Assembly (NCBI RefSeq): GCF_002224285.1
Contig: NZ_CP022436.1
Coordinates: 310,001-374,000 of the forward strand
DNA from: Arthrobacter sp. YN
GTDB taxonomy: Bacteria; Actinomycetota; Actinomycetes; Actinomycetales; Micrococcaceae
Reading direction: 5' to 3'
DNA: 64,000 bases
Part shown: in pieces, positions 6,001-43,973 of the stretch
How positions within the stretch are numbered: the stretch's first letter is position 1
Layout: every line of letters starts with the position of its first letter
Made by a program: the position numbers and the translations under genes
The notes under the pieces: model-generated
The model's database searches: none
The model's input: the letters and a program-made list of their open reading frames with translations, nothing else
Told to the model about the DNA's origin: nothing

Positions 6001-9000
6001 TCGGCTGTCCAGGATCCTTCGAAGGTTGGTGACGTTATTACGTACACCTTTACCTCGAAGAACACGGGCAATGTGAAGCTCACTGGTGTGGTCATCAATG
6101 ACCCGCTGGCCGGCTTGTCTGCCCTTGAGTACACCTGGCCGGGTACCCCCGGCGAGCTGCTTCCGGGTCAGACCGTGACGGCTACGGCAACGTACGCCAT
6201 CACCCAGGCTGATATCGACGCCGGTCACGTCGCCAATGCGGCGACCACCACCGGAACTCCGCCTGTTGGGCCTCCTGTCACGCCTCCTCCGGGAACCACG
6301 GATACTCCGTTGACTCCGGCTCCGGCGATGGAGTTCAGCAAGTCGGCTGACGCTTCGGCGATCCAGGATCCTTCACGGGTTGGTGACGTTATGACGTACA
6401 CCTTCTCTGCGAAGAACACCGGCAACGTGAAGCTCACTGGTGTGGTCATCAATGACCCGCTGGCTGGCCTCTCCGCGCTGACCTACACCTGGCCGGGAAC
6501 CCCCGGCGAGCTGCTTCCGGGTCAGACCGTGACGGCTACGGCAACGTACGCCATCACCCAGGCTGACATCAACGCAGGTCACGTCGACAACTCGGCAACC
6601 ACTACCGGTACCCCGCCTGTTGGGCCTCCTGTCACGCCTCCTCCGGGAACCACGGATACTCCGTTGACCCCGGCTCCGGCGATGGAGTTCACCAAGACGG
6701 CAGACGCTTCCGGTGTTCAGGACCCGTCGGTTGTGGGCGATCGCATCGTCTACACCTTCACGGCCAAGAACACGGGCAACGTCACGCTGACCAACGTGTC
6801 CATTACGGATCCGCTGGCAGGTCTCTCGGCACTGGCTTACTCCTGGCCGGGTACTCCGGGCGAGTTGCTTCCGGGCCAGACGGTGACGGCTTCGGCATCG
6901 TATGGCATTACTCAGGCTGATATCGACGCTGGTCATGTCGCCAACTCGGCAACCACTACGGGCACTCCGCCGGTTGGTCCTCCTGTCACGCCTCCTCCGG
7001 GAACAACGGATACTCCGTTGACCCCGGCTCCGGCGATGGAGTTCACCAAGAGCTCGGACGCCTCCGCGATTCAGAAACCTGCAGTTGTTGGTGACCAGAT
7101 CACTTACACCTTCACGGCGAAGAACTCCGGCAACGTCACGCTGAAGAACGTCACTATTGACGATCCTTTGGCTGGTCTCTCGGCACTGGAATACACCTGG
7201 CCGGGTACTCCCGGCGAGTTGCAGCCGGGCCAGACGGTGACCGCTACGGCAACGTATGCGATTACCCAAACTGACATCAATGCAGGCCATGTAGTGAACG
7301 CGGCAACCACTACGGGCACTCCGCCCGTTGGTCCGCCGGTAACGCCTCCTCCGGGAACGACGGATACTCCGCTGACTCCGGCTCCGGCGATGCAGTTCAC
7401 CAAGACGGCTGACGCTTCCGCTGTTCAGGACCCGTCCGTTGCAGGTGACAAGATCACCTACACGTTCACCGCGAAGAACACCGGCAACGTCAACCTCACC
7501 AACGTGTCCATTACGGATCCGCTGGCTGGCCTGTCCGCCCTCGAGTACACCTGGCCGGGGACCCCCGGCGAGCTGCTCCCGGGTCAGACCGTGACCGCTA
7601 CGGCAACGTATGCGATTACCCAGGCTGATATCGACGCCGGTCACGTCGCCAATGCGGCGACCACCACCGGAACTCCGCCCACCGGTCCGCCGGTGACGCC
7701 TCCTCCGGGAACGACGGATACTCCGTTGACCCCGAAGCCGGCGATGGAATTCAGCAAGTCTGCGGATGACTCGGCTGTCCAGGATCCTTCCAAGGTTGGC
7801 GAGGTCATTACGTATGCCTTCTCTGCGAAGAACACCGGCAACGTCACGCTGAAGAACGTCACGATTACCGACCCTCTGGCTGGTCTTTCGGCTCTGACGT
7901 ACACGTGGCCGGGCACTCCGGGCGAGTTGCTTCCGGGTCAGACGGTGACGGCTACGGCAACGTACGCCATCACGCAGGCTGACATCGACGCCGGTCACGT
8001 CGCGAACAGCGCCACGACCACCGGTACTCCTCCCACCGGTCCTCCGGTAACGCCTCCTCCGGGAACCACGGATACTCCGTTGACCCCGGCTCCGGCAATG
8101 GAGTTCACCAAGTCCGCTGACGCCTCAGCTGTCCAGGATCCTTCGAAGGCCGGTGACGTGATCACGTACACCTTCTCTGCGAAGAACACGGGCAACGTCA
8201 CGCTGAAGAACGTTTCCATCACGGATCCGCTGGCTGGTCTCTCGGCGCTGACCTACACCTGGCCCGGAGCTGCAGGAACACTGCTGCCCGGTGAAACGGT
8301 GACGGCTACGGCAACGTATGCCATCACCCAGGCTGATATCGACGCCGGTCATGTCGCGAACAGCGCCACGACCACGGGCACTCCGCCTGTTGGTCCTCCT
8401 GTCACGCCTCCTCCGGGAACCACGGATACCCCGCTGGTCCCGAAGCCGGCGATGGAGTTCAGCAAGTCGGCTGATGCCTCGGCTGTTCAGGATCCGTCCG
8501 TTGCAGGTGACCTGATCACCTACACGTTCACGGCGAAGAACACCGGCAACGTGACGCTGAAGAACGTTTCCATCAGCGATCCACTGGCAGGCCTGTCTGC
8601 CCTGGCTTACACCTGGCCGGGCACCCCCGGCGAGCTGCTGCCCGGTCAGACGGTGACGGCGACGGCAACGTACGCCATCACCGTGGCTGATATCGACGCC
8701 GGTCACGTCGCCAACTCGGCGACCACCACCGGTACCCCGCCGGTTGGTCCTCCTGTGACGCCTCCTCCGGGAACGACGGATACTCCGTTGACCCCGGCTC
8801 CGGCCATGGAGTTCACCAAGTCCGCGGACGCCTCGGCTGTTCAGGACCCCACAGTTGCAGGGGACAAGATCACCTACAACTTCACGGCCAAGAACACCGG
8901 CAACGTGACCCTGACCAACGTGTCCATCACGGATCCGCTGGCTGGCCTCTCGGCACTGACATACACCTGGCCCGGAGCTGCAGGAACACTGCTGCCCGGT

Positions 9001-9993: not shown

Positions 9994-10002
9994 GACAAAA
10001 AG

Positions 10003-10044
10003 TGCGCGGCAATCGGGGCCCCAACCCCGGTTGCCGCGCATTTT
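10003..10044 (+). terminator. Rho-independent terminator of the repeat-protein gene
   Basis: Arms TGCGCGGCAA (10003-10012) and TTGCCGCGCA (10031-10040) extend inward through a T-G wobble and CGGGG/CCCCG, giving about 16 pairs. TTTT follows directly. It lies 10 bases after the stop codon. Confidence 0.85.
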
Positions 10045-10084
10045 CAACGAACGTACAACCCAGAAAGAACCAGGTAGCCACACC

Positions 10085-10513
10085 ATGAAGAAGACTGTTG
10101 CGTGCATAGCGGGGGTGCTGGTTTCGGCAGCCGCACTCGCCGGTTGTTCGTCGTCCCAGAGCAACGAGGCAGGGACGTCGCCGTCGTCAACTACAACCCA
10201 AGCCGCCACCACCGGTGAGGCAAAACCTGCCAACCCCGGTACCGGCATCATTGAAGCCACCAAGATGACCTCCTGCGATACTGCGCAGGGAAAGGTCACG
10301 GCGAAGGGGACCGTGACTCCTCCGGAGGGGACCAAGGGCACGGTCAAAATTACCGTCAGCTGGGTGGACCCGAAGACCTCGGCCGTCCTCGCCCGTGGGG
10401 AGCAGACCTTCAAGGATGCTGCAGCGGGCAAGGCGCTTGACTGGGTCGCCAACGCAGAGGTAACCAAGCCTGCCGCGGAGATCAAGTGCGTCCTGGGGGC
10501 CACGGTCCTCTAG
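10085..10513 (+). CDS. Small secreted lipoprotein
   Basis: A 142-residue protein. The N-terminus has MKK, a hydrophobic stretch and the lipobox LAGC at residues 19-22, so Cys22 should be lipidated and anchor it to the outer face of the membrane. A Ser/Thr/Ala-rich linker follows, then a compact domain of about 85 residues with alternating hydrophobics and two cysteines (TSCD and IKCVL) that could form a disulfide. The domain recalls FxLYD-like beta-sandwich lipoproteins, but I do not recognise a specific family. The ATG at 10085 is chosen because it gives a complete signal peptide; in-frame codons upstream overlap the preceding terminator. It is bounded by terminators and so is probably monocistronic. 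Confidence 0.8.
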   Translation: MKKTVACIAGVLVSAAALAGCSSSQSNEAGTSPSSTTTQAATTGEAKPANPGTGIIEATKMTSCDTAQGKVTAKGTVTPPEGTKGTVKITVSWVDPKTSAVLARGEQTFKDAAAGKALDWVANAEVTKPAAEIKCVLGATVL

Positions 10514-10542
10514 GCAAGCAGTTCCATCAAACACCGTGCCAG

Positions 10543-10585
10543 AGCGGCCGGTCAGGTATCCATTACCTGGCCGGCCGCTTTTTTT
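10543..10585 (+). terminator. Rho-independent terminator after the lipoprotein gene
   Basis: Two 16-base arms (10543-10558 and 10564-10579) pair with one G-T wobble around a 5-base loop, and a run of T follows. The arm overlaps the 3' end of the convergent gene at 10563. That strand has no T tract after the hairpin, so it works mainly for the plus strand. Confidence 0.85.
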
Positions 10586-10940
10586 GCCACTGAACCGCGT
10601 GCCAGAACAGCAGGCCCGCAGTGATCAGCAAGGCGGCCAGCAGTACGTAGGGCGCGTTGGAAAGCAGGATGAACTTCATTTGGGCTGCTTCGGCGGATTC
10701 GGCGGGCTGGACGAATTGCGGAGAGCTCACTATCGCACCGACTGACGTAGCCAGCGCCCAGACTCCAAGCCAGGCCAAGCCGGCGTCCATGACCCACAAC
10801 GCAATGATGAACGGGTTGAATGGAGTCCGCTTGCGTTCCTTGTCCGCAGGCTCCGGCACATGGGGGCTGACGGCCTGCACAGCGTTGCCCTGCTCGTCGA
10901 TTTCGCGGAAGCCGATGCGCTCGTGGACGTGGTCCTTCAT
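10563..10940 (-). CDS. Small two-helix membrane protein
   Basis: A 125-residue protein beginning MKDHVHERIGF. A charged N-terminal region of about 45 residues (two short acidic/basic stretches) is followed by two hydrophobic segments, roughly residues 50-75 and 90-115, and a basic C-terminus (QKKRPAR). This suggests two membrane helices with both ends in the cytoplasm. The frame extends upstream to 11075, but that extension has out-of-character composition, and a G-rich stretch sits just before the ATG at 10940, so I start there. I do not recognise the family. It is convergent with the lipoprotein gene and divergent from the siderophore operon. Confidence 0.65.
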   Translation of the reverse strand: MKDHVHERIGFREIDEQGNAVQAVSPHVPEPADKERKRTPFNPFIIALWVMDAGLAWLGVWALATSVGAIVSSPQFVQPAESAEAAQMKFILLSNAPYVLLAALLITAGLLFWHAVQWQKKRPAR

Positions 10941-11164
10941 AGGTCCCCCAACCGTTGACTGCGGATAGTCCTTGCACTCTACTCCTGTAGTCGCGAAGCC
11001 CGACAAGGAAGAGCGGCGCCCAGGCATGGCCCATTGCCGACACTCCATGGCCGAAAAGAGTGCCGCATTTTGCACCCAATGCAGTCTGAAAGAAAGTCAA
11101 TGACGCGCAACTGGGCGGTACACAGGCGAGAAAGCGCCTTCAGAGCGAAATAGGTCACAAAAGT

Positions 11165-11204
11165 TTGACGGAAAGGCTTACCTAAGTAAGGCTTACCTTG
11201 CTAA
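11165..11204 (+). promoter_or_regulatory. Iron-box-like operator/promoter of the siderophore operon (DtxR/IdeR type)
   Basis: AAGGCTTACCT occurs twice, at 11173-11183 and 11188-11198, 15 bp apart. A 19-bp frame over the second copy matches about 14 positions of the IdeR/DtxR consensus, including the central GGC. A -35-like TTGACG (11165-11170) precedes it, so a bound repressor would cover the promoter. The site lies 38 bp before the first siderophore gene. Confidence 0.7.
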
Positions 11205-11235
11205 CAAGCGCCCCACGCAATGGAAGGAAGCTGAC

Positions 11236-12798
11236 GTGACGTCACCCAGTGTCGAAGAGCGGATCGCTCAGGAGCAGGATTTTGGCTCCAAAGTGGAACT
11301 GGCCCTCGCTGCCACCAACCAGCTGTTCAACGCACGAAATTCGCCCAGCTACGTCGCGCAGGTTCTCCAGGGAGTCAACGCTGTCTCCACCAAGGTCCAG
11401 CGCACCACCCAGCCGTTCACCGGCGTCGGGCATGCTGAACTGAAAGCCAGGGTAGGCGCCGTCGATCTTGAACGTCCGCTGCCGGACACGGCTGCCGCCC
11501 TGGAAGAGCTCGACGAGCTCTACCTCAAGGACGCCATCTACTTCCACGATTCCCGCTACGCCGCACACCTCAACTGCCCGGTAGTCATCCCTGCGTTGGT
11601 AGGAGAAGCCGTACTCTCGGCGGTGAACTCCTCCATGGACACGTGGGACCAGAGTGCGGGTGCCACCATGATCGAGCGCCGCCTCATCGATTGGACCGCC
11701 GAGCGCATCGGGTTCAGCACCGAGGCCGACGGCGTGTTCACCTCCGGTGGCAGCCAGTCCAACTTCCAGGCGCTGCTGATTGCCCGCAACCATGCTGTTG
11801 TCAAGCTACGGGCCGCAAGCGGGGACGCGCGCCTGCCCCACCTTCTTGACCGCCTCCGGATCTTCACGTCCGTGGACAGCCACTTCAGCATCCAGAAGTC
11901 CGCTTCCATGCTGGGCCTGGGCTTCGACGCCGTCATCGCGGTCCCCACCACCGAAGACCACCGCATGGACCCCGCCGCCCTTGCGGCTGCTTTGGCCGAA
12001 GCGCACGACGCCGGGCTGGTGCCGATGGCTGTTGTGGCCACCGCCGGGACCACGGACTTCGGTTCGGTTGACCCCTTGTCCGAAATGGCCGCGTTGGTTC
12101 GCGCCTACGATTCCTGGCTGCACGTGGACGGCGCCTATGGTGGCGGGCTCATCGTGTCCGGCCGCCACCGGCACCTCCTGGACGGCATCCACCTGGCGGA
12201 TTCCGTCACGGTGGACTTCCATAAGACGTTCTTCCAGCCGGTCAGCTCCAGCGCGGTCCTGGTCCGCAACGGTTCCATGATGGGCCACGTGACCTACTAC
12301 GCGGACTATCTGAACCCGGAAAGCGCCGCAAAGGCCGAGATCCCCAACCAGGTGGACAAGAGCATCCAGACCACCCGCCGCTTCGATGCACTGAAGCTAT
12401 GGCTGACCCTCCGCATCATGGGCGCCGACGCCATTGGTGCGCTCTTCGACGAAGCCATCGACCTCGCCGCCCGGGTAGGCACCCTGCTGGCTGACGACGC
12501 CGAGTTCGAGCTCGCTGCCGCCCCGCAGCTGAGCACCTTGGTGTTCCGCTACCGCCCAATGGTTGACGGTGCACCCCTCGACGACGACGCTGCAGACGCA
12601 CTCAACCCCGCCATCCGCGCAGCCATCTTCGCTTCAGGCGAGGCCGTAGTTGCCGGCACCAAAGTTGCTGGCCGCCACTACCTCAAATTCACCCTCCTCA
12701 ACGCCGAAGCGAGCCTGCGGGACATCCAGGAAATCATCGAACTTATCCGCCGGACGGGCAACGGCCTGCTGGCGAACACCACGGAGGCGGCAGCGTGA
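11236..12798 (+). CDS. desA: PLP-dependent lysine decarboxylase of siderophore synthesis (DesA-like)
   Basis: A 520-residue group II PLP decarboxylase (glutamate/aromatic decarboxylase fold). The PLP lysine is Lys330 in VDFHK; upstream are the TSGGSQSN cofactor loop and the HVDGAYGG segment. In desferrioxamine pathways this enzyme turns L-lysine into cadaverine, the backbone of the siderophore. Position as first gene of a four-gene operon with an N-hydroxylase, an acyltransferase and an NIS synthetase supports lysine over other substrates; the sequence alone does not exclude ornithine or diaminobutyrate. The start is GTG with a GGAAGG site 7-13 bases upstream. It overlaps desB by 4 bases. Confidence 0.88.
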   Translation: MTSPSVEERIAQEQDFGSKVELALAATNQLFNARNSPSYVAQVLQGVNAVSTKVQRTTQPFTGVGHAELKARVGAVDLERPLPDTAAALEELDELYLKDAIYFHDSRYAAHLNCPVVIPALVGEAVLSAVNSSMDTWDQSAGATMIERRLIDWTAERIGFSTEADGVFTSGGSQSNFQALLIARNHAVVKLRAASGDARLPHLLDRLRIFTSVDSHFSIQKSASMLGLGFDAVIAVPTTEDHRMDPAALAAALAEAHDAGLVPMAVVATAGTTDFGSVDPLSEMAALVRAYDSWLHVDGAYGGGLIVSGRHRHLLDGIHLADSVTVDFHKTFFQPVSSSAVLVRNGSMMGHVTYYADYLNPESAAKAEIPNQVDKSIQTTRRFDALKLWLTLRIMGADAIGALFDEAIDLAARVGTLLADDAEFELAAAPQLSTLVFRYRPMVDGAPLDDDAADALNPAIRAAIFASGEAVVAGTKVAGRHYLKFTLLNAEASLRDIQEIIELIRRTGNGLLANTTEAAA

Positions 12799-32169: not shown

Positions 32170-33372
32170 TCACACTCCCGCGTCCTCCAGCACCTTCTCC
32201 GCGTCCTTGACCCGCAACTTGCCGGACATGAGTTGGGGGAGAAGAGCGTCGCGGGTGGCAGCTATGGTGGCGTTCTCAACACGGGTGGCTGCAACTCTGG
32301 ATCCGAGCAATGAGATCTGGCGCTTGACTGCTGTGGGGACCGAACTGAGGTCGGTAACGGGCGTTGCCAATACATCACCTGGCTTGACTCGTTGATGGCT
32401 GCTGGATGTACCGGAAACTCGTGATTCTAGCGAAGCGCTGAATAAGGGCTGCGAAAGCATGGCCCAGATAACTGCCGTGGATTCTTCCTTCGGTTCCAGG
32501 ACCAAGAACTCAGTGGAGGCGAGTGCAGGAATACTTGGCAAGGTGGCCACGTCCCAGATTCTAGGGAAACGCGGGTTCAACTTGGATATGAGTACGGAAG
32601 GCTCCGCGATGACGAACTTGTTGCTCTTGATGTTCGCGGGCTTAGACACTTCCGGGCACCGGTCGGTATCGAATGCTGGCAAGCTGAAGTGGGCAACATT
32701 TTCGACAGATATACTCTCAGGATTGGCAGATCTTCGTCGATGCACGGCTATCTCAGAGAGCGGGAGACGTACGGGGTAGGGCGTTAGCAGAGATACCATC
32801 AGTTGCGAGGCGGTGACAGACAGTTTGGTGTTGGCGGCGATCTTGTCGTCGAGGACGCCCAGAACCTCAGCAATGGCCCGCTGTTCTGCAGGTTCAGGCA
32901 CTTGCAACGGCACTGCCGCAAGAATCGACGTGTTGAGGTTGGGCATGGTTGCACCTACGGCATGGCGAACAATCCATGCGCGAGCTTCCTCAGTGCCAAG
33001 AAGATACGACACAAATGCAGGACTATGTTCAGACTGTTCTCCCAGCCTCACCCGAAGGCATCCAGTGCCGCAGAGCCATCCTTCATTGTTTTCTCGAACA
33101 AGAGCGCGCTTTTCGACGTCCCCACGTCGGGAATAGACAATGTCGCCATTTCGCATTCGATACTTGGCGAGTCGCAAAGCATCTGATTCTTGAATTCGGG
33201 CGATGCCCTCCGCATGAATAACGTTGTCACCAATGTTCTGCGGCATAACGCTCGGTATCCCGTCCAAGACGTAGTCCGACGCGTGAAGTTGGCTCCCGAA
33301 GGGACCTGTTTGGATCCCTCCCCCTCCTTCGGCGCAGAGTGCACCTAACGTTATTTCTCGCCACTCGCTCAA
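32170..33372 (-). CDS. hsdS: Type I restriction enzyme, S (specificity) subunit
   Basis: 400 residues with two target-recognition domains, each followed by a conserved helix: the first ends in VPEPAEQRAIAEVLGVLDDKIAANTKL (about residues 160-190), the second in VKRQISLLGSRVAAT and ALLPQLMSGKLRV near the end. The N-terminal TLGALCAEGGGGIQTGPFGSQLH is the usual TRD1 opening. It reads the bipartite DNA site for HsdM and HsdR. The start is TTG inside the hsdM stop (TTGA, 4-base overlap), which fits translational coupling and the typical SEW start. TRDs are hypervariable, so the recognised sequence cannot be inferred. Confidence 0.9.
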   Translation of the reverse strand: MSEWREITLGALCAEGGGGIQTGPFGSQLHASDYVLDGIPSVMPQNIGDNVIHAEGIARIQESDALRLAKYRMRNGDIVYSRRGDVEKRALVRENNEGWLCGTGCLRVRLGEQSEHSPAFVSYLLGTEEARAWIVRHAVGATMPNLNTSILAAVPLQVPEPAEQRAIAEVLGVLDDKIAANTKLSVTASQLMVSLLTPYPVRLPLSEIAVHRRRSANPESISVENVAHFSLPAFDTDRCPEVSKPANIKSNKFVIAEPSVLISKLNPRFPRIWDVATLPSIPALASTEFLVLEPKEESTAVIWAMLSQPLFSASLESRVSGTSSSHQRVKPGDVLATPVTDLSSVPTAVKRQISLLGSRVAATRVENATIAATRDALLPQLMSGKLRVKDAEKVLEDAGV

Positions 33373-34997
33373 AGCACTCGCCCCAACTGCTCGCGCACCA
33401 CAGCGGTCAGCCGCTCGGACTCTTCGAACTGTTCAAACAGCTCCTTTGAAAGCCGTGCGATCTTCTCCTCGATCGGCTCGCCGTCGTCCTCGACGTCCGC
33501 AGCCCCTACGTACCGCCCGGGGGTCAGGGCGTAGTCCGCTGCCTTGACCTCCGCGAGGCTGGCCGAGTAGCAGAAGCCCGCCTCGTCGTCGTACGTCAGT
33601 CCGGTCTCAACCGCCGAATCTGTGCCTCGCCACGCGTGGTAAGTGTTGGCGATCTTCGCGATGTCCTCATCGGAAAGCGCACGCTCGGCGCGGTCCACCA
33701 TGTAGCCGAGGTTCCGTGCATCGATGAACAGCACTTGCCCGGTCCGGTCGACGGAGCCGCGCGGGCCGGCGGTCTTGTCCTTCGCGAAGAACCACGTGCA
33801 GACCGGGATGCCGGTGCTGCGGAAGAGCTGGGTGGGCAGCGCCACCATGCAGGAGACGAGGTCGGCTTCCACCAGCTGGGCGCGGATCTCGCCCTCACCC
33901 CCGGAGTTGGAGGACATGGAGCCGTTGGCCATGACCACGCCAGCGCTGCCGCCTGGGGCGAGCTTCGAGATGATGTGCTGAATCCAAGCGTAGTTGGCAT
34001 TGCCAGCCGGGGGGACGCCGTACTTCCAGCGTGGGTCCGACTCGGAGCGGGACCAGTCCTTGATGTTGAAGGGCGGGTTGGCCATGATGAAGTCGGCGCC
34101 ATTGTTGCCGGTCAGCTCGGGGTGCTGGTCGCGGGCGAACGTATCGCCCCAGCGAGAGGCGAGGTTGGCGTTAAGGCCGTGGATGGCGAGGTTCATCTTC
34201 GCCATTCGCCAGGTGCGCTCGTTGAGCTCCTGGCCGTAGACGGAGATGTCGGAGCCTTCCATGTTGTGGGCCTCGAGGAACTTTTCGGCTTGCACGAACA
34301 TGCCGCCGGATCCGCAGCAGGGGTCGTACACGCGGCCGCGGTGTGGTTCGAGGACCTCGACCAGGACTCGGACCACGCCGGCGGGGGTGTAGAACTCACC
34401 GCCTCGTTTGCCCTCGGCCTTGGCGAACTTTTCGAGGAAGTATTCGTAGACCTCGCCCAGCAGGTCTCGGGCCTTGCTGGCCCCCTGACCGGTGAAGCGC
34501 GCCGAATTGAAAAGATCCAGCAGCTCGCCAAGACGGCGCTGGTCCACGTTGTCCCTGTTGTAGATGCGGGGGAGCGTGGCAGCCAGGGACTTGTTGTCCA
34601 TCATGATCATGTCCATGGCCTCGTCGATGAGCTGCCCCACCAACTTCGGGTGCTCGCCCATGGCTGCAGGCAGGCCCTTGGCGTTCTCTGCCAAATAGGT
34701 CCACCGCGCCCGAGGTGCCACCCAGAAGACGCCGCGGCCCGTGTACTCGTCGACGTCGTCGATCAGCTGAGCGATCTGGTCCTCGTTGAGACCGTCCGCC
34801 TCCAGTTCGGCTTGGATCTGCTCACGACGTTCGTCGAAAGCGTCGGAGACGTACTTCAGGAACACCAGGCCCAGGATCACGTCCTTGTACTGTGAGGCAT
34901 CCATGGAGCCGCGCAGCTTGTCCGCGGCTTTCCAGAGGGTGTCCTTGAGTTCCTTCATGGTGGACGGGGCGAGGTCCACCTTCAATTTCGGGGGCAT
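33369..34997 (-). CDS. hsdM: Type I restriction enzyme, M (N6-adenine methyltransferase) subunit
   Basis: 542 residues. The N-terminal helical domain (residues about 10-140, LKDTLWKAADKLRG) precedes the methyltransferase domain with the SAM motif DPCCGSGG at 225-232 and the catalytic NPPF at 307-310. It methylates adenine in the site read by HsdS and protects host DNA. AAAGGA about 8 bases upstream marks the ATG. That ATG overlaps by one base the stop of the upstream HTH/methyltransferase-like gene (TAATG), so all are translated as a set. Both catalytic motifs are intact, unlike in the upstream protein. Confidence 0.93.
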   Translation of the reverse strand: MPPKLKVDLAPSTMKELKDTLWKAADKLRGSMDASQYKDVILGLVFLKYVSDAFDERREQIQAELEADGLNEDQIAQLIDDVDEYTGRGVFWVAPRARWTYLAENAKGLPAAMGEHPKLVGQLIDEAMDMIMMDNKSLAATLPRIYNRDNVDQRRLGELLDLFNSARFTGQGASKARDLLGEVYEYFLEKFAKAEGKRGGEFYTPAGVVRVLVEVLEPHRGRVYDPCCGSGGMFVQAEKFLEAHNMEGSDISVYGQELNERTWRMAKMNLAIHGLNANLASRWGDTFARDQHPELTGNNGADFIMANPPFNIKDWSRSESDPRWKYGVPPAGNANYAWIQHIISKLAPGGSAGVVMANGSMSSNSGGEGEIRAQLVEADLVSCMVALPTQLFRSTGIPVCTWFFAKDKTAGPRGSVDRTGQVLFIDARNLGYMVDRAERALSDEDIAKIANTYHAWRGTDSAVETGLTYDDEAGFCYSASLAEVKAADYALTPGRYVGAADVEDDGEPIEEKIARLSKELFEQFEESERLTAVVREQLGRVL

Positions 34998-37054
34998 TAC
35001 TGGGTTCCTTTTGTCTGGGGTTCGGCGAGATTATTGCTGAGGTGGTCTATCAGGGTGAGGCTTCCGCTCGCCACGCCGTCCGTTATCAGCGTAGCGACTT
35101 CGTGGAGTTGCCCGAGCCGTTCTCGGGCTTGTTGCTGCTCGTGCTGCAGCCGGGCAAGAGTATCGCCCAGTTTCATCCGCTGGGCCTCGGGTACGCGACG
35201 CAGGCGCCACCGGCGCCAAGCCTTGTCCGTTGGGGAAATGCTGTTGATGTCAGAGGCAACGACGAACGGCGACAGCCCGCCCGGGTCAGCGGCGTCGACG
35301 CGTAGTACCTTCGCCGGGAATATGACAACGGAACCACCGTGAGTGTCCACCGTGGCAGCGGGCCGGGGGCTAGTGCAGAAGACGACGTCGCCCGGCTGCG
35401 TGAGCAGGCTCGCAGGATATTTGGCTGCCAGGTCCAGTAGGGCGATGTGCCGGTGCGGCGCGTTGTGAGGGTCAAGCAGCTCCGCCGGGCCCAAGGCTCG
35501 GGTTCCCTTCTGCTGGTTCAGGTCCGCCTCCGCCACCCGATTTCCCTTGATGTGCTTGAGGGCGCCGGAGGAGATGAGTTCTTGGACTGTAGCTGCCTGG
35601 GAGTTCACGTTCGTACCGGTGGGCAAGATGTGTAAGGCAGGCGAGTCGCTGGACTGCAGCAGACGCGCCAGTTCCTCCACCCGGAGTGCTGCCTCGGCAC
35701 CATTCGGCTTGCCAGCCGAACGATGGGGCGGCGCTGGCACCAAGGACTTCCTGCTGACCAGCAGGTGCCGGGTCTGCACCAGCCGGGCGAACCGGAAGGA
35801 ATGGGCGCGCACCGTTGCGCCGTTTCCCATGGAGGCAACGATGTCACTGATCAGGTCCTGCTTCACGTCTTCTGTGAGGTCTTGGGTACTGAGGTCCGCC
35901 ACCATGGTCCAGCGTTCGGCAATAGGAACCTCCGGGAACGACGGTCCAAGCACCCAAAGCGCCTGAGCTTCGCGGGGTTTGGCGCGCAGCAGGCCTTGGG
36001 GTAGCCGCACGATGGCGCGGACCCGGCCGATTCGGAGCAACTCCGCACGGAGCCCTCTGGAGCTGCCGTCCGTCAGCGGATCGCAGAGAACCCGAGCCGG
36101 GCCGATGATGACAGCCCTCTGTTGGTCATCCATCTGTAAGAGAAGCTGTTCCACTGCCGCAAGGATCTGCGCTCCGTCCATGCCGGATTCGCCTGGGGAC
36201 GGGTACTGAGCCACGTGAACTACAGGTCCTCGGACGGCGAACTCCCCGCTCGGATCGAGATGGATCTGCCCGCGGTCCACGCCGTGCACCCGCAGTCGGC
36301 GACGCACTAGGCGACCTGAACCGCCGTCGTCGTCCGCTGTCATGAACGTGACCGGCGCTGCTTCCCCGGCGGCATGGGCGACGCCCAGCAGGAGATCGCT
36401 ACCGCCTCGCGTGGAATCAGCAAAGACGGAGTTTCCGCCAAGAGTCGCGGCCAGTTCAACGACGGCAGCTGCCACCAACCCCACGGCAGACTCGGTGAGG
36501 GCTGTGGCGGAGTACTCCTTCAGCCCATCGCGGAACCTCGCGGCAAGCAAATGCTCGAAGGCCCCTGCCACGTTGTAGGCACTGTCCACCAGTCGGTCGG
36601 TGAACGCCGCGTAGGAGACAAGCGACGTTCCCGCGGCTTCCATTTCGGAGTACAGGAATGTGTCATCTGGATCGCACTCGTCTGCAGCGTCCAGCAATTC
36701 TTCCCTACTCAGCTGTGTCAACGAGTTACCAGTAATTGCCTTGAGCGTCAGCAGTGCCGTGAGAGTTTCGAAGGTGTTTCCGCGGGTTCCATCGGCAGTC
36801 GTGTCGGGCATGCGGGTGAAGGCAGCGACGTCGTTGGCTGCCTCTCGGTTGTTGCCCCGTCCAGTATCCGCCAGCCAAGCAGCGATGTGGCCGGAGTCGA
36901 AGAGTTCCAACCTGCCGTTGAGCGCTACAGGCTTCGGAAATGGGTGGGCGGATCCGGCACTGCGTTTTCGCCACATGGACACAACGGGGCGCTGGACCTG
37001 CGCGAGGGCGGCAACGTCCGAGAGGGTCATGAGCATTGCTTCTGTTTGGTTCAT
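34997..37054 (-). CDS. HTH + degenerate N6-methyltransferase-like + HsdS-like fusion protein of the hsd operon
   Basis: 685 residues in three parts. Residues about 8-60 form an AlpA/MerR-like HTH (TLSDVAALAQVQRPVVSMWRKR). Residues about 90-440 resemble HsdM: a helical part, a degenerate SAM loop FADSTRGGS at 211-219, and at the catalytic place AQYPSPG (282-288) instead of NPPF; the later RAIVRLPQGLL segment is HsdM-like. Residues about 470-675 resemble an HsdS half: a TRD-like region (SLLTQPGDVVF), then RMKLGDTLARLQHEQQQARERLGQL and ASGSLTLID. I infer a catalytically dead, DNA-binding accessory or regulatory subunit. It is first in the operon with GGAGG 5 bases before the ATG. Confidence 0.72.
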   Translation of the reverse strand: MNQTEAMLMTLSDVAALAQVQRPVVSMWRKRSAGSAHPFPKPVALNGRLELFDSGHIAAWLADTGRGNNREAANDVAAFTRMPDTTADGTRGNTFETLTALLTLKAITGNSLTQLSREELLDAADECDPDDTFLYSEMEAAGTSLVSYAAFTDRLVDSAYNVAGAFEHLLAARFRDGLKEYSATALTESAVGLVAAAVVELAATLGGNSVFADSTRGGSDLLLGVAHAAGEAAPVTFMTADDDGGSGRLVRRRLRVHGVDRGQIHLDPSGEFAVRGPVVHVAQYPSPGESGMDGAQILAAVEQLLLQMDDQQRAVIIGPARVLCDPLTDGSSRGLRAELLRIGRVRAIVRLPQGLLRAKPREAQALWVLGPSFPEVPIAERWTMVADLSTQDLTEDVKQDLISDIVASMGNGATVRAHSFRFARLVQTRHLLVSRKSLVPAPPHRSAGKPNGAEAALRVEELARLLQSSDSPALHILPTGTNVNSQAATVQELISSGALKHIKGNRVAEADLNQQKGTRALGPAELLDPHNAPHRHIALLDLAAKYPASLLTQPGDVVFCTSPRPAATVDTHGGSVVIFPAKVLRVDAADPGGLSPFVVASDINSISPTDKAWRRWRLRRVPEAQRMKLGDTLARLQHEQQQARERLGQLHEVATLITDGVASGSLTLIDHLSNNLAEPQTKGTQ

Positions 37055-37339
37055 GTCCGCCTCCTTTCGTCATTGACCTCACCTTATCGCCGTGGAGCAC
37101 CCTAAAAAACGGCAACCTCGATAAGGGGGGTTATCAGTATATTTGCTTTTTCATATAAGTCCTTGCCGTAGCTTCGTTCTCAAGCAACGAGGGAAGGTCT
37201 CCGGAGTTGCGATTGCTGCGGGAGCCATGCATTGGGGGACCGGTTTCCGCGTATTTCGACAATCCCTCTCCTTCCGAAAGATCGGAGGGTCCACCAGTGC
37301 GGCCGTACGAGGCCGACATAGCTGATAGAGGTTCCAGAC
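37055..37339. promoter_or_regulatory. Divergent promoter region, hsd operon / DUF2130 gene
   Basis: 285 bp without an ORF. The segment around 37105-37165 is the most AT-rich of the neighbourhood. GATAA and TTATC arms flank a G6 run at 37119-37134 (a small inverted repeat). On the minus strand TATACT is a good -10 candidate about 80 bp before the hsd operon start. No clear operator for a controller protein was identified. Confidence 0.45.
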
Positions 37340-38755
37340 ATGCATGACATCAAGTGCCCGCACTGCGGACAGACATTTACTATCGACGAAGCCGGCTACG
37401 CCGACATCGCCAAGCAGGTTCGCGATGCTGAGTTCGAACAGCAGCTCAACGAACGGCTTGAACTGGCAGGGCAAGACAAGGCCACTGCTCTCGAGCTCGC
37501 GGAGGCGAAGTCCGCCAGCGAACGCCAGAAGATCGCGGCGGCCAAGGATGCTGAGATCCAGGAGCTGAAGTCAAAGCTCGATGCCGGTGAGGTTGCACAG
37601 AAGCTCGCCGTATCCGAGGCACTTGGTGCCGTCGAAAAGGAGCGCGATGGGCTGATGAAGGAGCTCGAACACGCGAAGCAGGAGAAACAGGCATCAGCTG
37701 AACTGGCCGAGGCGAAGCTCGCTAGCGAACTTCAGAAGACTGCATCGGAGAAAGACTCCGCGATCCAGGACCTCAGGGCGAAGCTCGAAGCCATCGAAAC
37801 CGCGCAGAAGCTTGAGATCTCCGAAGCAGTCAACACAATCGAAAAGGAGCGAGACAAACTCAAGAGCAGCCTTGAACGGGCCGATCTCGAGAAGCAGCTC
37901 GGTGAGAAGGCTCTGAAAGACAAGTACGAAACCCAGATCAAGGACCGTGAAGAACAGATCGAGCGGCTGCGGGACCTGAAAGCCAAGCTGTCGACCAAGA
38001 TGGTCGGAGAAACTCTTGAACAGCACTGTGAGACCGAGTTCAACCGCATCCGTGCCACAGCTTTCCCCCTTGCCTATTTCGAGAAGGACAACGATGCGCG
38101 GGCCGGGAGCAAGGGTGATTACATCTTCCGCGACTCCGATAGTGCCGGTACTGAGATTGTGTCAATCATGTTTGAGATGAAGAACGAGAACGACGGAACC
38201 GCGACCAAGCATAAGAACGAAGACTTCCTGAAAGAGCTGGATAAGGATCGCACGGAGAAGGGGTGCGAGTACGCAGTGCTGGTCTCTCTGCTCGAGCCTG
38301 ATAGCGAGCTCTACAACACCGGGATCGTCGACGTTTCTCACCGCTATCCGAAAATGTATGTCATCCGCCCGCAGTTCTTCATCCAGCTCATCGCGCTGCT
38401 GCGGAATGCCGCGATGAATTCGCTCGAATACAAGACCGAACTTGCGATGGTCAAGGCGCAGAACTTGGACATCACAAATTTCGAACAGCAGATCAGCGAT
38501 TTCAAGGACGCGTTCGGTCGGAACTGGAGGCTCGCCTCCGACGGTTTCGTGGAGGCGATCAAGCGCATCGACGAAGCGATCAAGGACCTGGAAAAGACGA
38601 AAGTGGCGCTGCAGAAGTCTGCCGACAACCTGAGGCGTGCGAACGCCAAAGCCGACGATCTCACCATTAGGAAGCTCACGCGAGGCAACTCGACAATGAC
38701 CACCAAATTTGCCGAGTTGGAGGCAGCGAAGACGGCCGGGTGGGACGTCAACTGA
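37340..38755 (+). CDS. DUF2130 protein: zinc knuckle, long coiled coil, nuclease-like core
   Basis: 471 residues. CPHCG at residues 6-10 is a short zinc-knuckle half. Residues about 30-220 are Glu/Lys/Ala-rich heptads, a long coiled coil with an internally repeated AELAEAKLASE/ALELAEAKSASE block. Residues about 225-450 are the DUF2130 core, with GDYIFRD and an E-x-K (MFEMKNE) pattern like PD-(D/E)xK nucleases, then RPQFFIQLIALLRNA. Relatives are often found near restriction genes. A DNA-cleaving or DNA-end role is inference. AGAGG lies 9 bases before the ATG. Divergent from hsd, ended by a strong terminator. Confidence 0.82.
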   Translation: MHDIKCPHCGQTFTIDEAGYADIAKQVRDAEFEQQLNERLELAGQDKATALELAEAKSASERQKIAAAKDAEIQELKSKLDAGEVAQKLAVSEALGAVEKERDGLMKELEHAKQEKQASAELAEAKLASELQKTASEKDSAIQDLRAKLEAIETAQKLEISEAVNTIEKERDKLKSSLERADLEKQLGEKALKDKYETQIKDREEQIERLRDLKAKLSTKMVGETLEQHCETEFNRIRATAFPLAYFEKDNDARAGSKGDYIFRDSDSAGTEIVSIMFEMKNENDGTATKHKNEDFLKELDKDRTEKGCEYAVLVSLLEPDSELYNTGIVDVSHRYPKMYVIRPQFFIQLIALLRNAAMNSLEYKTELAMVKAQNLDITNFEQQISDFKDAFGRNWRLASDGFVEAIKRIDEAIKDLEKTKVALQKSADNLRRANAKADDLTIRKLTRGNSTMTTKFAELEAAKTAGWDVN

Positions 38756-40446: not shown

Positions 40447-40524
40447 AGCCAGCCCAACTGAGTAACAGCACACGTCCTACTGAACCTTCAATAGAGCGTT
40501 ATCTGCGACTCAGTTGGGCTGGCT
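40447..40524. repeat. 17-bp perfect inverted repeat over the ligD 3' end
   Basis: AGCCAGCCCAACTGAGT at 40447-40463 returns in reverse complement at 40508-40524, with a 44-base spacer. The right arm includes the last ligD codons and stop. It may be a long-loop terminator for the convergent genes. Confidence 0.8.
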
Positions 40525-43068
40525 TACGTCCTCAGGGGACTTGTCGGGGCGCCAGCCACGCCACACGGGATGCCGCAGCCGGCCGGGCCCCGTCCATTCC
40601 CCGAAGGTCACCTCCGCCACAAGCTCAGGGCTGACCCACGTGGCACCTGCCGCGTCCTCACGGGGGATGTCCGCGAAGGGGGATTCGGTCACCGCGCGGG
40701 GCTCCAGAACCTCCATGATGTCCCGCAGTTGCCAGTCCTTGAATCCGCTGCCAACCCTGCCCACATAGTGCAGCTTGTCGCCGTCCGGGATGCCCAACAA
40801 GAGGGAACCGAACGTCCCGCTTCGAGCCCCGGCACCGGGACGCCAGCCACCCACCACCACTTCCTGGCTTTGCTCCAGCTTGAGCTTGAGCCAGGACCTG
40901 CTGCGGCGGCCGATCACATAACGGCCGTCGGCTTTCTTCGCCATCACGCCCTCCAAGCCCAGCTCGGCGGCGCTGGCCATGAGATCCTCTACGTCATGGT
41001 CCAGAACCGCCGAAAGATGCAGCGGGCAGCCTTGGGGCAAGCGCTCCGCAAACCCCGAGAGTTTTTCGCGACGCTCTCGGAAAGACAGGCCGCTCAGGTC
41101 CGTGCCGTCGTCGTACAGAAGGTCGAACAGCATGAGCTGCACCGGGACCGCTGCCCGTGCCCGCTGGATGTCCGCAGCTTTGACCAGGTTCATCCGGAGT
41201 TGCAGCCGGCCGAAATCAGGCCGTGATCCTTTGCCGAGCGCCACGATCTCGCCATCAGCAACGAAGTCGCCGTCGGGCCAGCATGCGCGGTCCGTCAGTT
41301 CTGGGTATGTGGCCGTGAGGTCATTTCCGTTGCGGCTCATGAGGCGGATCCTGCCCTCGGTTCCCGTGATGATCGCCCGGATTCCGTCCCACTTCAATTC
41401 ATACAGCCAATCGTCGCCGTGGAGGTCAGCGGTGGTGCCTGAGGTTGCGAGCATGGGGGTGTAATTCGGCGGGGGCTGCGGAGCCGTCGGCTGGGACTGG
41501 GGTGTCACGGCTTTGGCTGTGGATGCTCCACCCCGCCGCCTTCCAGGTTGCTCCTTCATCAGGTGGATCAGCCAGTTCTGACCCGTATTGATCAGCGCGA
41601 ACCGTTTGGTCCCACCAAGTCCGCCGCCCGGCTCGCCTGTGAGGGTCGCAATGACTTCCTTGCCGTCGCGCCATTTCTCGCACGTGTAATCGCCGCGGTC
41701 CCAGATGCTGACGGTCCCCGCGCCGTACTCGCCCTTGGGGATGACGCCCGCGAAGTTGGCATAGTCCATGGGATGGTCCTCGGTGTGCACGGCCAGGTTG
41801 TTGCGGTTTGGAGTTTCAGGAACGCCACGGGGGAGTGCCCACGACACCAGGACGCCGTCGCGTTCCAACCGGAAATCCAGATGGTAGCGGCGGGCATGGT
41901 GCTCCTGGATGACAAAGATGCCGCCCGGCGGCGGCGGGTCGCCCGGTTCCGGTTGATCCGAGGACGAGCCCCCGGTCAGCGGGAAGGCAGAAACGGCCGA
42001 CGACGACGGAAACGGCTCCGGGGTCTTGCCCGGATCGCGCATCCCGACATACTTGGCGAGACGGTTCTCCACCGTCACCACCCGCTCGCGGGAGGTACCC
42101 GGGCTGCTGCCCGTGCCCGAACTGCCTGCGGGAGCACCGTCGTCGTCCTTCTCATCCTCACCGTGGGGCGGAAGGTGCCGCTCGGAAATCGGTGCGAAGT
42201 GGTCCTTGCCCGTCTTGACACGCTTCATCACGGCCAGGAAATCCAAGTGCTCCAAGGAGGCGGAGGTCAGCTCACGCCACGTGCGCGGCGCCGCCACGGT
42301 GGGGCGCGCCTTGCCGCGGAGTGAGTAGGGGACGATGGTGGTTTTGTTCCCACTGTTCTGGCTCCAGTCCACCAGCACCTTGCCGTGGCGGAGGGACTTT
42401 TTCATGTCGCTGACCACCAGCTCGGGGTGGTCGGACTCCAGGGCGCGGGCAAGCTCTTTGGCGAAGGCGGACACTTGCTCGGACTTAAGGGTCCCATCCA
42501 GGCCCGTGTAGAGGTGGATGCCCTTGCTGCCGCTGGTGACGGGGACAGGGTCCATGCCCATGTCCTGCAGGATGGAGCGGGCCAGCTTGGCCACCTCAAC
42601 GCACTCGGGCAGTCCCGCTCCGGGCCCGGGGTCCAGGTCCAAAACAAAGCGGTCGGGGCGGAGCGGCTTCCCTGAAGGATCCACTTGCCACTGCGGAACG
42701 TGGATTTCCAACGAGGCGATCTGGGCCATCCACGTCAACGTGGCCAGGTTGTTGACCATGGGGTAAACGTTGGCGTGGTCCGAATGCTGAATGGCGGCCC
42801 GGGGTATCCACCGGGGGGCGGAGTCCTCAAGGTTCTTCTGGAAGAACACCTCCCCGGGATTCTCAGCTGTGCCCACTCCGTTGACCCACCGCTTGCGCGT
42901 CACCGGCCTGTTGGCCGCCGCGGGAATGAGGAAAGGAGCGACGGCGGCGTAGTACTCCAGCACTTCGGCCTTGGTGGTGCCGGTCTCCGGGTAGATGATT
43001 TTCCCCAGGTTGGTGAGGGTGAGCTCGTGGCCTTCCACGTTCACGCGCTCCTGTTGCTTGCCTGCCAC
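40510..43068 (-). CDS. ligD: Multifunctional NHEJ ATP-dependent DNA ligase LigD
   Basis: 852 residues in the Mycobacterium order. Residues about 1-290: primase/polymerase domain with LDLDPGPG, metal Asp144 and Asp146. Residues about 380-500: 3'-phosphoesterase (HARRYHLDFRLERDGVLVSWALPRG, HTEDHPMDYANFAG). Residues about 540-850: ATP ligase with nucleotidyl Lys559 in ELKWDGIR and the LKLK-type motif V. It fills, trims and seals Ku-bound double-strand breaks. The start is GTG with AGGAG 5 bases upstream. It is divergent from ku, 38 bp between starts, so the two likely share control. Several low-complexity linkers are normal for actinobacterial LigD. Confidence 0.95.
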   Translation of the reverse strand: MAGKQQERVNVEGHELTLTNLGKIIYPETGTTKAEVLEYYAAVAPFLIPAAANRPVTRKRWVNGVGTAENPGEVFFQKNLEDSAPRWIPRAAIQHSDHANVYPMVNNLATLTWMAQIASLEIHVPQWQVDPSGKPLRPDRFVLDLDPGPGAGLPECVEVAKLARSILQDMGMDPVPVTSGSKGIHLYTGLDGTLKSEQVSAFAKELARALESDHPELVVSDMKKSLRHGKVLVDWSQNSGNKTTIVPYSLRGKARPTVAAPRTWRELTSASLEHLDFLAVMKRVKTGKDHFAPISERHLPPHGEDEKDDDGAPAGSSGTGSSPGTSRERVVTVENRLAKYVGMRDPGKTPEPFPSSSAVSAFPLTGGSSSDQPEPGDPPPPGGIFVIQEHHARRYHLDFRLERDGVLVSWALPRGVPETPNRNNLAVHTEDHPMDYANFAGVIPKGEYGAGTVSIWDRGDYTCEKWRDGKEVIATLTGEPGGGLGGTKRFALINTGQNWLIHLMKEQPGRRRGGASTAKAVTPQSQPTAPQPPPNYTPMLATSGTTADLHGDDWLYELKWDGIRAIITGTEGRIRLMSRNGNDLTATYPELTDRACWPDGDFVADGEIVALGKGSRPDFGRLQLRMNLVKAADIQRARAAVPVQLMLFDLLYDDGTDLSGLSFRERREKLSGFAERLPQGCPLHLSAVLDHDVEDLMASAAELGLEGVMAKKADGRYVIGRRSRSWLKLKLEQSQEVVVGGWRPGAGARSGTFGSLLLGIPDGDKLHYVGRVGSGFKDWQLRDIMEVLEPRAVTESPFADIPREDAAGATWVSPELVAEVTFGEWTGPGRLRHPVWRGWRPDKSPEDVSQPN

Positions 43069-43106
43069 CTCTTCTCCTCTGCTGTGTTGTGCTGTTGACT
43101 GGGTGC

Positions 43107-43973
43107 ATGAGGGCCATATGGAAGGGATCCATCGCGTTCGGTCTGGTCAACGTACCAGTGAAGCTCTACAGTGCCACGGAGGATCACGATATTAGCCTGC
43201 ACCAAGTCCACAACAAGGACGGCGGGCGTATCCGGTACCAGCGGAAATGCGAAATTTGCAGCGAAGTGGTGGCGTATGAGGATATCGACAAGGCCTACGA
43301 AGAAGAAGGCCGAACCGTTGTCCTGACGTCCGCGGAATTGAAGTCGTTGCCGGAGGAAAACAGTCGCGAAATCGAGGTGGTGGAGTTCATCCCCGCCGAG
43401 CAGCTGGACCCCATCATGTATGAACGCAGCTATTTCCTGGAGCCGGATTCCAAATCGCCCAAGGCTTACATGTTGCTGAGGCAGACGTTGGAGGACACCG
43501 ACAGGATCGCCATTGTCCAGTACGCGCTGCGGCAGAAGACCCGTTTGGGTGCGCTGCGGGTGCGTGGTGATGTACTGCTGCTGCAGGCTTTGCTGTGGGG
43601 CGATGAAGTCCGTGAAGCCAAATTCCCCTCCCTTGAGAGTGACATCAAGATTTCGGACAAGGAGCTGGAGATGTCCTCCGCCCTGGTGGAATCCATGGCT
43701 CATGACTTTGATCCCGATGAGTACACCGATGACTACCAGGTCCAGTTGAAGACGTTGATCGAGGCCAAGCTGGATAAGGGCGAGGCCCTGGACACTGAGG
43801 CCACGTTCGGCGTTGTTGAGGGCGAAGGCGAAGGCGGCGACGTCATCGACCTCATGGAAGCGCTTAAGCGCAGCCTGGACAAGAAACGCGGCAAGGAGAA
43901 AGCGGACGACGCCGGCGCTGCCGCCGGCAAAACTGCCGGCAAGCCAAAGGCGCGGGCCAAGAAAAAGGCCTGA
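43107..43973 (+). CDS. ku: NHEJ end-binding protein Ku
   Basis: 288 residues beginning MRAIWKGSIAFGLVNVPVKLYSAT, the invariant Ku opening. The beta-barrel core holds HQVHNKDGGRIRYQRKCE and VVAYEDIDKAYE, and the segment LDPIMYERSYFLEPD is also conserved. The C-terminus is Lys/Ala-rich (KPKARAKKKA), the extended tail seen in actinobacterial Ku that aids DNA binding. It forms a ring-shaped homodimer on broken ends and recruits LigD. A possible earlier ATG at 43089 adds six residues not found in the family, so 43107 is preferred. Confidence 0.94.
   Translation: MRAIWKGSIAFGLVNVPVKLYSATEDHDISLHQVHNKDGGRIRYQRKCEICSEVVAYEDIDKAYEEEGRTVVLTSAELKSLPEENSREIEVVEFIPAEQLDPIMYERSYFLEPDSKSPKAYMLLRQTLEDTDRIAIVQYALRQKTRLGALRVRGDVLLLQALLWGDEVREAKFPSLESDIKISDKELEMSSALVESMAHDFDPDEYTDDYQVQLKTLIEAKLDKGEALDTEATFGVVEGEGEGGDVIDLMEALKRSLDKKRGKEKADDAGAAAGKTAGKPKARAKKKA

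Follow-up and report, generated by a model that had tools for sequence, protein, structure and literature searches.

A predicted autogenous regulator built from an HTH domain and a catalytically altered HsdM-HsdS-like body heads type I restriction-modification operons in actinobacteria

The 64,000-nucleotide stretch of the Arthrobacter sp. YN genome considered here (contig NZ_CP022436.1, positions 310,001 to 374,000; hereafter the window) carries an hsd operon whose first gene encodes a 685-residue protein that we call MX. The operon is, by its gene content, a type I restriction-modification system, with predicted hsdM, hsdS and hsdR genes in one cluster. MX joins an N-terminal winged helix-turn-helix (HTH) domain to an HsdM-like body and a tail resembling half of an HsdS subunit, and it is very probably a dedicated autogenous transcriptional regulator, of either sign, of the operon that it heads. 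Conservation of the operon, loss of the catalytic motif from MX, conservation of an inverted repeat (GATAA-N6-TTATC) ahead of the gene and the fixed geometry of the promoter are established by sequence comparison.

The inverted repeat ahead of MX is new here and was absent from the first-pass annotation of the window. Two sets of loci were compared, a first set of 39 loci and a named set of 77 loci kept from 194 relatives found, 44 of the latter (A3) having been picked for diversity. The two sets share strains (e.g., L121/L031 and L144/L046) and the loci are phylogenetically related, so the counts given throughout are not independent events. The repeat is exact upstream of MX in 38 of the 39 first-set loci, with one mismatch in the remaining locus (L047); a pattern for the HTH failed to place five of the 39 (L034, L038, L042, L069 and L118), and the repeat was seen there separately. 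All 77 named loci have it at 9 or 10 of the 10 positions (70 of them exactly), and among 14 deep loci found at class level it is exact in 10, matches 9 of 10 positions in two and matches 8 of 10 in two.

The repeat is also rare away from MX. Within the 5.06-Mb genome of the window, GATAAN6TTATC occurs exactly once, before MX, and the reversed-pattern control does not occur at all. MX was matched at E 0.001 in 48 of 295 genomes of the family, 44 of which were counted as having a true MX after exclusion of the weak matches in G065, G173, G235 and G246. The extended pattern YGATAAN6TTATCR is found in 42 of these 44 genomes versus 26 of the 251 genomes without MX. Those 42 genomes hold 49 sites in all; a tally, with the place of the G020 site taken from its locus, puts 44 before MX, two before hsdR and three elsewhere. 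Repeat sites in these sequences are almost confined to hsd loci.

The position of the repeat within the MX promoter is rigid. In 68 of the 77 named promoters a TANNNT hexamer starts at an offset of 48 to 50 bases, counted from the repeat's first base, and when offsets 20 to 69 were scanned none apart from 48 to 50 reached 8 of 89. The distance from this candidate -10 element to the MX start codon is variable (31 to 143, with a single case at 7), and a search of the 77 named promoters for a -35 element gave a best match no better than that of the shuffled control. With the hexamer taken as the -10 element, the repeat centre would lie near -52, that is, about 52 bp before the presumed transcription start and just upstream of the -35 region.

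A second line of evidence comes from loci in which hsdR is separated from the other hsd genes. Where the distance from the end of hsdM to the first-set hsdR exceeds 4.4 kb, a repeat matching at 8 to 10 of the 10 positions stands about 50 to 60 bp before hsdR in seven of nine loci, versus none of the 21 loci with a nearer hsdR, which include the window locus and L101, a locus that lacks MX. The window hsdR, which is adjacent to hsdS, is without a repeat site (best match 7 of 10). In the named set, six of 11 hsdR genes beyond 3.6 kb have a site matching at 9 or 10 positions, versus 0 of 43 nearer genes reaching 8, and all six sites are followed by TANNNT at offset 49 or 50. The first-set comparison includes two near-identical pairs (L049/L050 and L054/L058), and the named-set comparison has one strain in common with it.

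The first-pass annotation had described MX as an HTH, a dead methyltransferase and an HsdS-like tail in one protein, with an altered S-adenosylmethionine (SAM) loop and QYPS in place of the NPPF of HsdM, and this description holds: the domains are seen in the structure model, motif IV is gone, and both substitutions appear in the MX sequence and the alignment. A homologue with intact NPPF beside the same genes, which would speak against it, was looked for and is absent from the 75 aligned MX sequences. Motif IV ([NDS]PP[YFW]) occurs at the aligned position in 0 of the 75, a lone SPPW lying elsewhere in L190; the alignment excludes the short or broken frames of L134, L139 and L171 and includes the partly broken L137 and L167. 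Q283 and P285 of QYPS are almost invariant among homologues, and strand 278-283 of the model terminates at Q283. The model has the HsdM fold in MX, and the alignment of MX to 7eew extends to residue 669. An earlier structure model built from 12 sequences was poor (predicted local distance difference test score, pLDDT, 61.6) and was not used.

PHROG excisionase and DNA-binding profiles match the HTH (E 7e-6 and 1.9e-5). There is no accepted domain match for MX in Pfam or NCBIfam, and PADLOC gave only a weak match (MTase_I, E 0.015). A Pfam HTH_17 match (E 0.011) was rejected as misplaced, at residues 488-513. A sequence search of the PDB with the single protein gave no match at E 1, and a profile search with MX reached the M subunit of StySJI at E 0.022. 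Mean identity to the window MX is 56.6% in the HTH, 54.6% in the Rossmann-like part and 46% in the tail.

Co-variation between the HTH and the repeat hints at the HTH as the reader of the repeat. The repeat is exact in 120 of 132 locus rows (the sets being redundant), and the recognition helix VSRQAVSMW occurs in two of 137 loci scanned, exactly the two that carry GTTAA-N6-TTAAC. Two locus rows with RPVPT have GGTAA on one side of the repeat. Further GTTAA-type loci were sought in the genus (5 genomes) and in the order (22 genomes), and only the two already known were found. The co-variation is merely suggestive, because the pair represents a single lineage (two loci of one genus whose proteins are 50% identical) and because L203, with the similar helix VRRQVVSMW, retains GATAA.

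MX is followed by hsdM and then hsdS in all 36 flanked first-set loci with a true MX, hsdR lies within most first-set stretches (in some cases several kb beyond hsdS), and 73 of the 77 named loci have hsdM as the next gene after MX. The order proposed in the first-pass annotation is conserved, and its view that this is not the classic three-gene HsdRMS set holds, MX being a fourth conserved gene across loci. The TAATG junction that it placed between MX and hsdM is confirmed in the window sequence, where the TAA stop codon of MX overlaps the ATG of hsdM by one base. Of the four named exceptions, L178 is a contig end, L134 and L171 have a truncated MX, and L174, from Mumia, has an orphan MX. Even where identity falls to about 30%, MX open frames mostly span 640 to 740 residues and retain invariant residues and the promoter; truncated or frame-broken copies occur in L134, L171, L038, L118 and L139. 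L171 and L134, with their truncated MX, are decayed loci, and the next frame in L171 resumes partway through an hsdR-like sequence, as a deletion would leave it. A convergent gene near the orphan MX of Mumia (L174/L200) is Fic-like by appearance.

Named MX loci carry 18 actinobacterial genus names, among them Arthrobacter, Pseudarthrobacter, Cryobacterium, Agromyces, Rhodococcus, Oerskovia, Cellulosimicrobium, Glutamicibacter and Humibacillus. The organisms, where given, among 120 of 495 homologues listed were Arthrobacter, Paenarthrobacter, Pseudarthrobacter or under another Micrococcaceae label, and a second protein search, with A1, returned mainly the same close homologues. At class level 101 of 394 genomes match MX, mostly through the HTH alone, and 15 (the window genome included) do so below 1e-60. 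Twelve class-level loci (L201-L212) have an MX of about 30% identity, followed in 12 of 12 by an hsdM product of about 60 to 74% identity. An HsdM at least 79% identical to that of the window was found in 47 cases in the 295 family genomes, 46 of them in MX genomes (in G105 on another contig) and the remaining one in G079. Further out, L102-L105 (genus g3) encode very distant MX-like proteins of 706 to 708 residues ahead of an hsdM about 54% identical, that of L102 having no Pfam match; the gene of 567 to 571 residues before it in L102-L104 may be AlbA/Schlafen-like. In L065 (positions 6224-11613) a protein of HTH-N6_Mtase-S-like make-up retains DPVAGSG and DPPY; two hsdM genes in tandem and an hsdR match come after it, which makes this a type I locus with two M subunits and an X that may be active.

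How would MX work? That the HTH binds the repeat, that MX dimerises and senses, and in which direction it regulates are inferences. The winged HTH, presumably as part of an MX dimer, would bind GATAA-N6-TTATC and thereby control the MX-hsdM-hsdS(-hsdR) operon and, at many loci with a far hsdR, a separate hsdR promoter as well. The HsdM-like body, with its catalytic motif gone, and the half-S tail may serve as a dimerisation scaffold, and it is possible that this dead M-S body senses free HsdM/HsdS, SAM or target DNA.

Several observations weigh against regulation through the repeat. Beyond 3.6 kb, three of the 11 named-set hsdR genes are without anything like a site, and two more (L190 and L193) have a variant, GATA-N7-TATC, one base shorter than the operator; the 4.4-kb limit applied to the named set leaves two of five with an hsdR site, both distance limits were chosen post hoc, and the 8-of-10 cut-off is reached by 111 of 2203 scored segments of first-set loci, true sites included. 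The 26 MX-less genomes that hold the pattern do so once or twice, by eye about as often as the reversed control, and the repeat was not found near the very distant MX-like genes of L065-L068 and L102-L105. G079 has an hsdMSR locus (L101) with an HsdM 93% identical and neither MX nor a nearby repeat, so MX is not indispensable; this locus is a natural MX-less system for comparison. Mumia (L174 and L200) presents the converse, an MX preceded at 55 bp by the repeat, around which no hsd genes were found. Moreover, conservation of the HTH only slightly exceeds that of the dead Rossmann-like part, so that the body must serve some purpose that regulation leaves unexplained, and the nearest studied fusions, as well as RptR, repress their own promoters.

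The last point bears on the sign of regulation. Within the regulator reading activation is moderately favored over repression, because of the rigid spacing to the -10 element, the site upstream of a promoter without a -35 signal and the sites at separate hsdR genes, an arrangement whose logic resembles that of C proteins (PMC3874152). The alternative, a lesser possibility that is counted within the confidence given to regulation as a whole, is that MX is an autorepressor of the hsd operon whose repression is relieved by phage infection or loss of methylation. There are precedents for it: M.SsoII and M.EcoRII act as repressors at their own promoter (PMC12707154, PMC3978073), RptR, a 79-residue protein of gammaproteobacteria, is a repressor with TAGCTA repeats over the -10 element (PMC12255303), and a dead M.EcoRII mutant still represses, only when its target sites are methylated (PMC12707154). 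The mutant is a precedent for a non-catalytic sensor and shows that a regulator need not catalyse methylation for its action to depend on it. The promoter architecture speaks against autorepression by MX, since the RptR sites overlap the -10 element whereas the MX repeat is placed ahead of the -35 region, at a rigid distance from the -10 element and with no -35 signal.

An alternative role for MX is that of a structural or specificity part of the restriction complex, either as an inactive M-S half-complex or as a second specificity, with the repeat belonging to another regulator. The first-pass annotation had suggested these two roles beside regulation of the operon, and of the three it is regulation that is favored by the repeat, the promoter geometry, the distant hsdR sites and the one co-variation. 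The retention of the HsdM fold and a half-S in MX (from model and alignment), the translational overlap with hsdM in the window, the near-constant adjacency of hsdM and a Rossmann-like part nearly as conserved as the HTH would all fit a structural role. The tail was compared with HsdS in the first 50 of 70 loci with a usable hsdS (1225 pairs). Identities of the MX body and tail are correlated (r 0.71), those of the tail and HsdS hardly so (r 0.12), and of 67 close pairs 60 show less than 45% identity in HsdS, whereas the MX tail is at least 66% identical in all 67. A second specificity is disfavored because the tail does not follow the exchange of HsdS, and the repeat tracks MX across genomes (42 of 44 versus 26 of 251), so that a purely structural or specificity role appears improbable. 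MX may nevertheless act, in addition, as an inactive HsdM partner.

It is also conceivable that the TRD-like tail, and not the HTH, reads the repeat: a dimer would bring together two half-S tails, which could likewise read a symmetric bipartite site. In type I and IIB enzymes, pairs of target recognition domains (TRDs) typically recognize bipartite symmetric sites. We consider this arrangement quite unlikely for MX, given that the altered helix and the altered repeat occur together in two loci and that the HTH is the better conserved domain (57% versus 46%). That MX is an eroding, functionless relic of a second modification enzyme, as the missing catalytic motifs and the truncated or frame-broken copies might imply, is scarcely credible beside open frames that mostly keep their length, invariant residues and a conserved promoter.

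A more far-reaching possibility, which we put forward tentatively and at somewhat below an even chance, is that a retired M plus half-S module has been recast as a transcription controller, one that ties how strongly a type I system is expressed to the state of the system's own modification machinery, and that such controllers form a widespread class across Actinomycetes. The dead M-S body would in this case bind, for instance, (un)methylated target DNA, SAM or free HsdM, and the HTH would act on one genomic operator.

Coordinates of the operon and its candidate control elements are collected in Table 1. Upstream of MX, and divergent from it, is a gene for a DUF2130 protein (window 37340-38755, plus strand), which L070 alone of 40 loci showed. 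LigD-like and Ku-like genes, by appearance for non-homologous end joining, lie a few kb from the hsd operon (window 40510-43973).

Table 1. Predicted features of the hsd operon and of the region upstream of MX, in window positions
Feature	Position	Strand	Basis or remark
MX, 685-aa HTH + HsdM-like + TRD-like protein; hsd operon gene 1	34997..37054	minus	
Winged HTH, MX residues 8-64, recognition helix around VQRPVVSMWRKR	36863..37033	minus	model secondary structure, PHROG matches
HsdM-like body, residues 75-447: helical domain + Rossmann-like fold	35714..36832	minus	
SAM motif I, degenerate, FADSTRGGSDLL, residues 211-222	36389..36424	minus	
QYPS at NPPF position of HsdM, residues 283-286	36197..36208	minus	alignment, model
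TRD-like domain, single, residues 487-620	35195..35596	minus	model; hhalign to HsdS; 7eew alignment
C-terminal long helix, HsdS-like, residues 623-663	35066..35188	minus	model, pLDDT ~80-85 per block of ten
hsdM, 542 aa, NPPF present	33369..34997	minus	Pfam N6_Mtase E 1.2e-111, HsdM_N E 1.9e-25
hsdS, 400 aa	32170..33372	minus	Methylase_S E 3.8e-9; PADLOC Specificity_I E 2.5e-61
hsdR, 1075 aa	28878..32105	minus	TIGR00348 hsdR E 1e-137; Pfam HSDR_N, T1RH-like_C
Candidate operator GATAAGGGGGGTTATC (GATAACCCCCCTTATC on minus strand)	37120..37135		sole exact GATAAN6TTATC in 5.06-Mb genome
Candidate -10 hexamer TAAGGT, offset 49 from operator first base	37081..37086	minus	sequence, family statistics
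Shine-Dalgarno AGGAGG ahead of MX start codon	37060..37065	minus	sequence

These comparisons suggest that the type I systems of many soil actinobacteria open with an MX gene that is now their own gene switch. If that is the case, a fossil of a restriction-modification enzyme has been reused as a regulator. The MX family offers a predicted regulator, operator and target promoters under 18 genus names and is thus directly testable, and GATAA-N6-TTATC before an HTH/M-S gene is a sequence signature by which such loci can be found. A literature search among open-licence papers returned nothing recognized as MX; it found work on RptR and on M.SsoII/EcoRII, together with reviews.

Among known proteins, HsdM and fused M-S proteins (3khk, 3lkd and 7eew) share the fold of MX residues 75-447, and 7eew has the M-S arrangement; these proteins are without a winged HTH, whereas MX adds one and is without NPPF and a GxG-type motif I. 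The actinobacterial HTH-N6 methyltransferases of L218 and L221 resemble MX in having a related HTH and an N6 methyltransferase part homologous to HsdM, but unlike MX they retain NPPF and DPACGTG. The GATAA repeat was not found within about 220 bp upstream of ten such HTH-N6 methyltransferase-like genes, those of L218 and L221 among them. RptR, like MX, is encoded by the first gene ahead of a type I system, is conserved with the hsd genes and binds repeats in its own promoter (PMC12255303), where MX has a predicted operator; MX differs from it in size and in its repeat, and RptR has no methyltransferase fold.

The type II enzymes M.SsoII, M.Ecl18kI and M.EcoRII are described in PMC3978073 as carrying, like MX, an N-terminal HTH on a modification enzyme, and MX appears to share with M.SsoII and M.EcoRII the combination of this domain with an inverted repeat in its own promoter. 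Those proteins, which repress their own gene, belong to type II systems and are catalytically active as C5 methyltransferases, whereas MX has an N6/type I fold without motif IV, bears a TRD-like tail and is encoded at the head of a type I operon. C proteins are likewise described as HTH regulators with their own operator that control restriction genes (PMC3874152), and the MX operator is a predicted counterpart. The placing of an operator also at the endonuclease gene may have a parallel in the repeat before many distant hsdR genes, none being present at the window hsdR. C proteins are small and stand-alone (PMC3978073), whereas MX is a multidomain protein with a 600-residue M-S body. MX thus resembles both M.SsoII/M.EcoRII-type and C-protein control, yet it lacks a defining feature of each.

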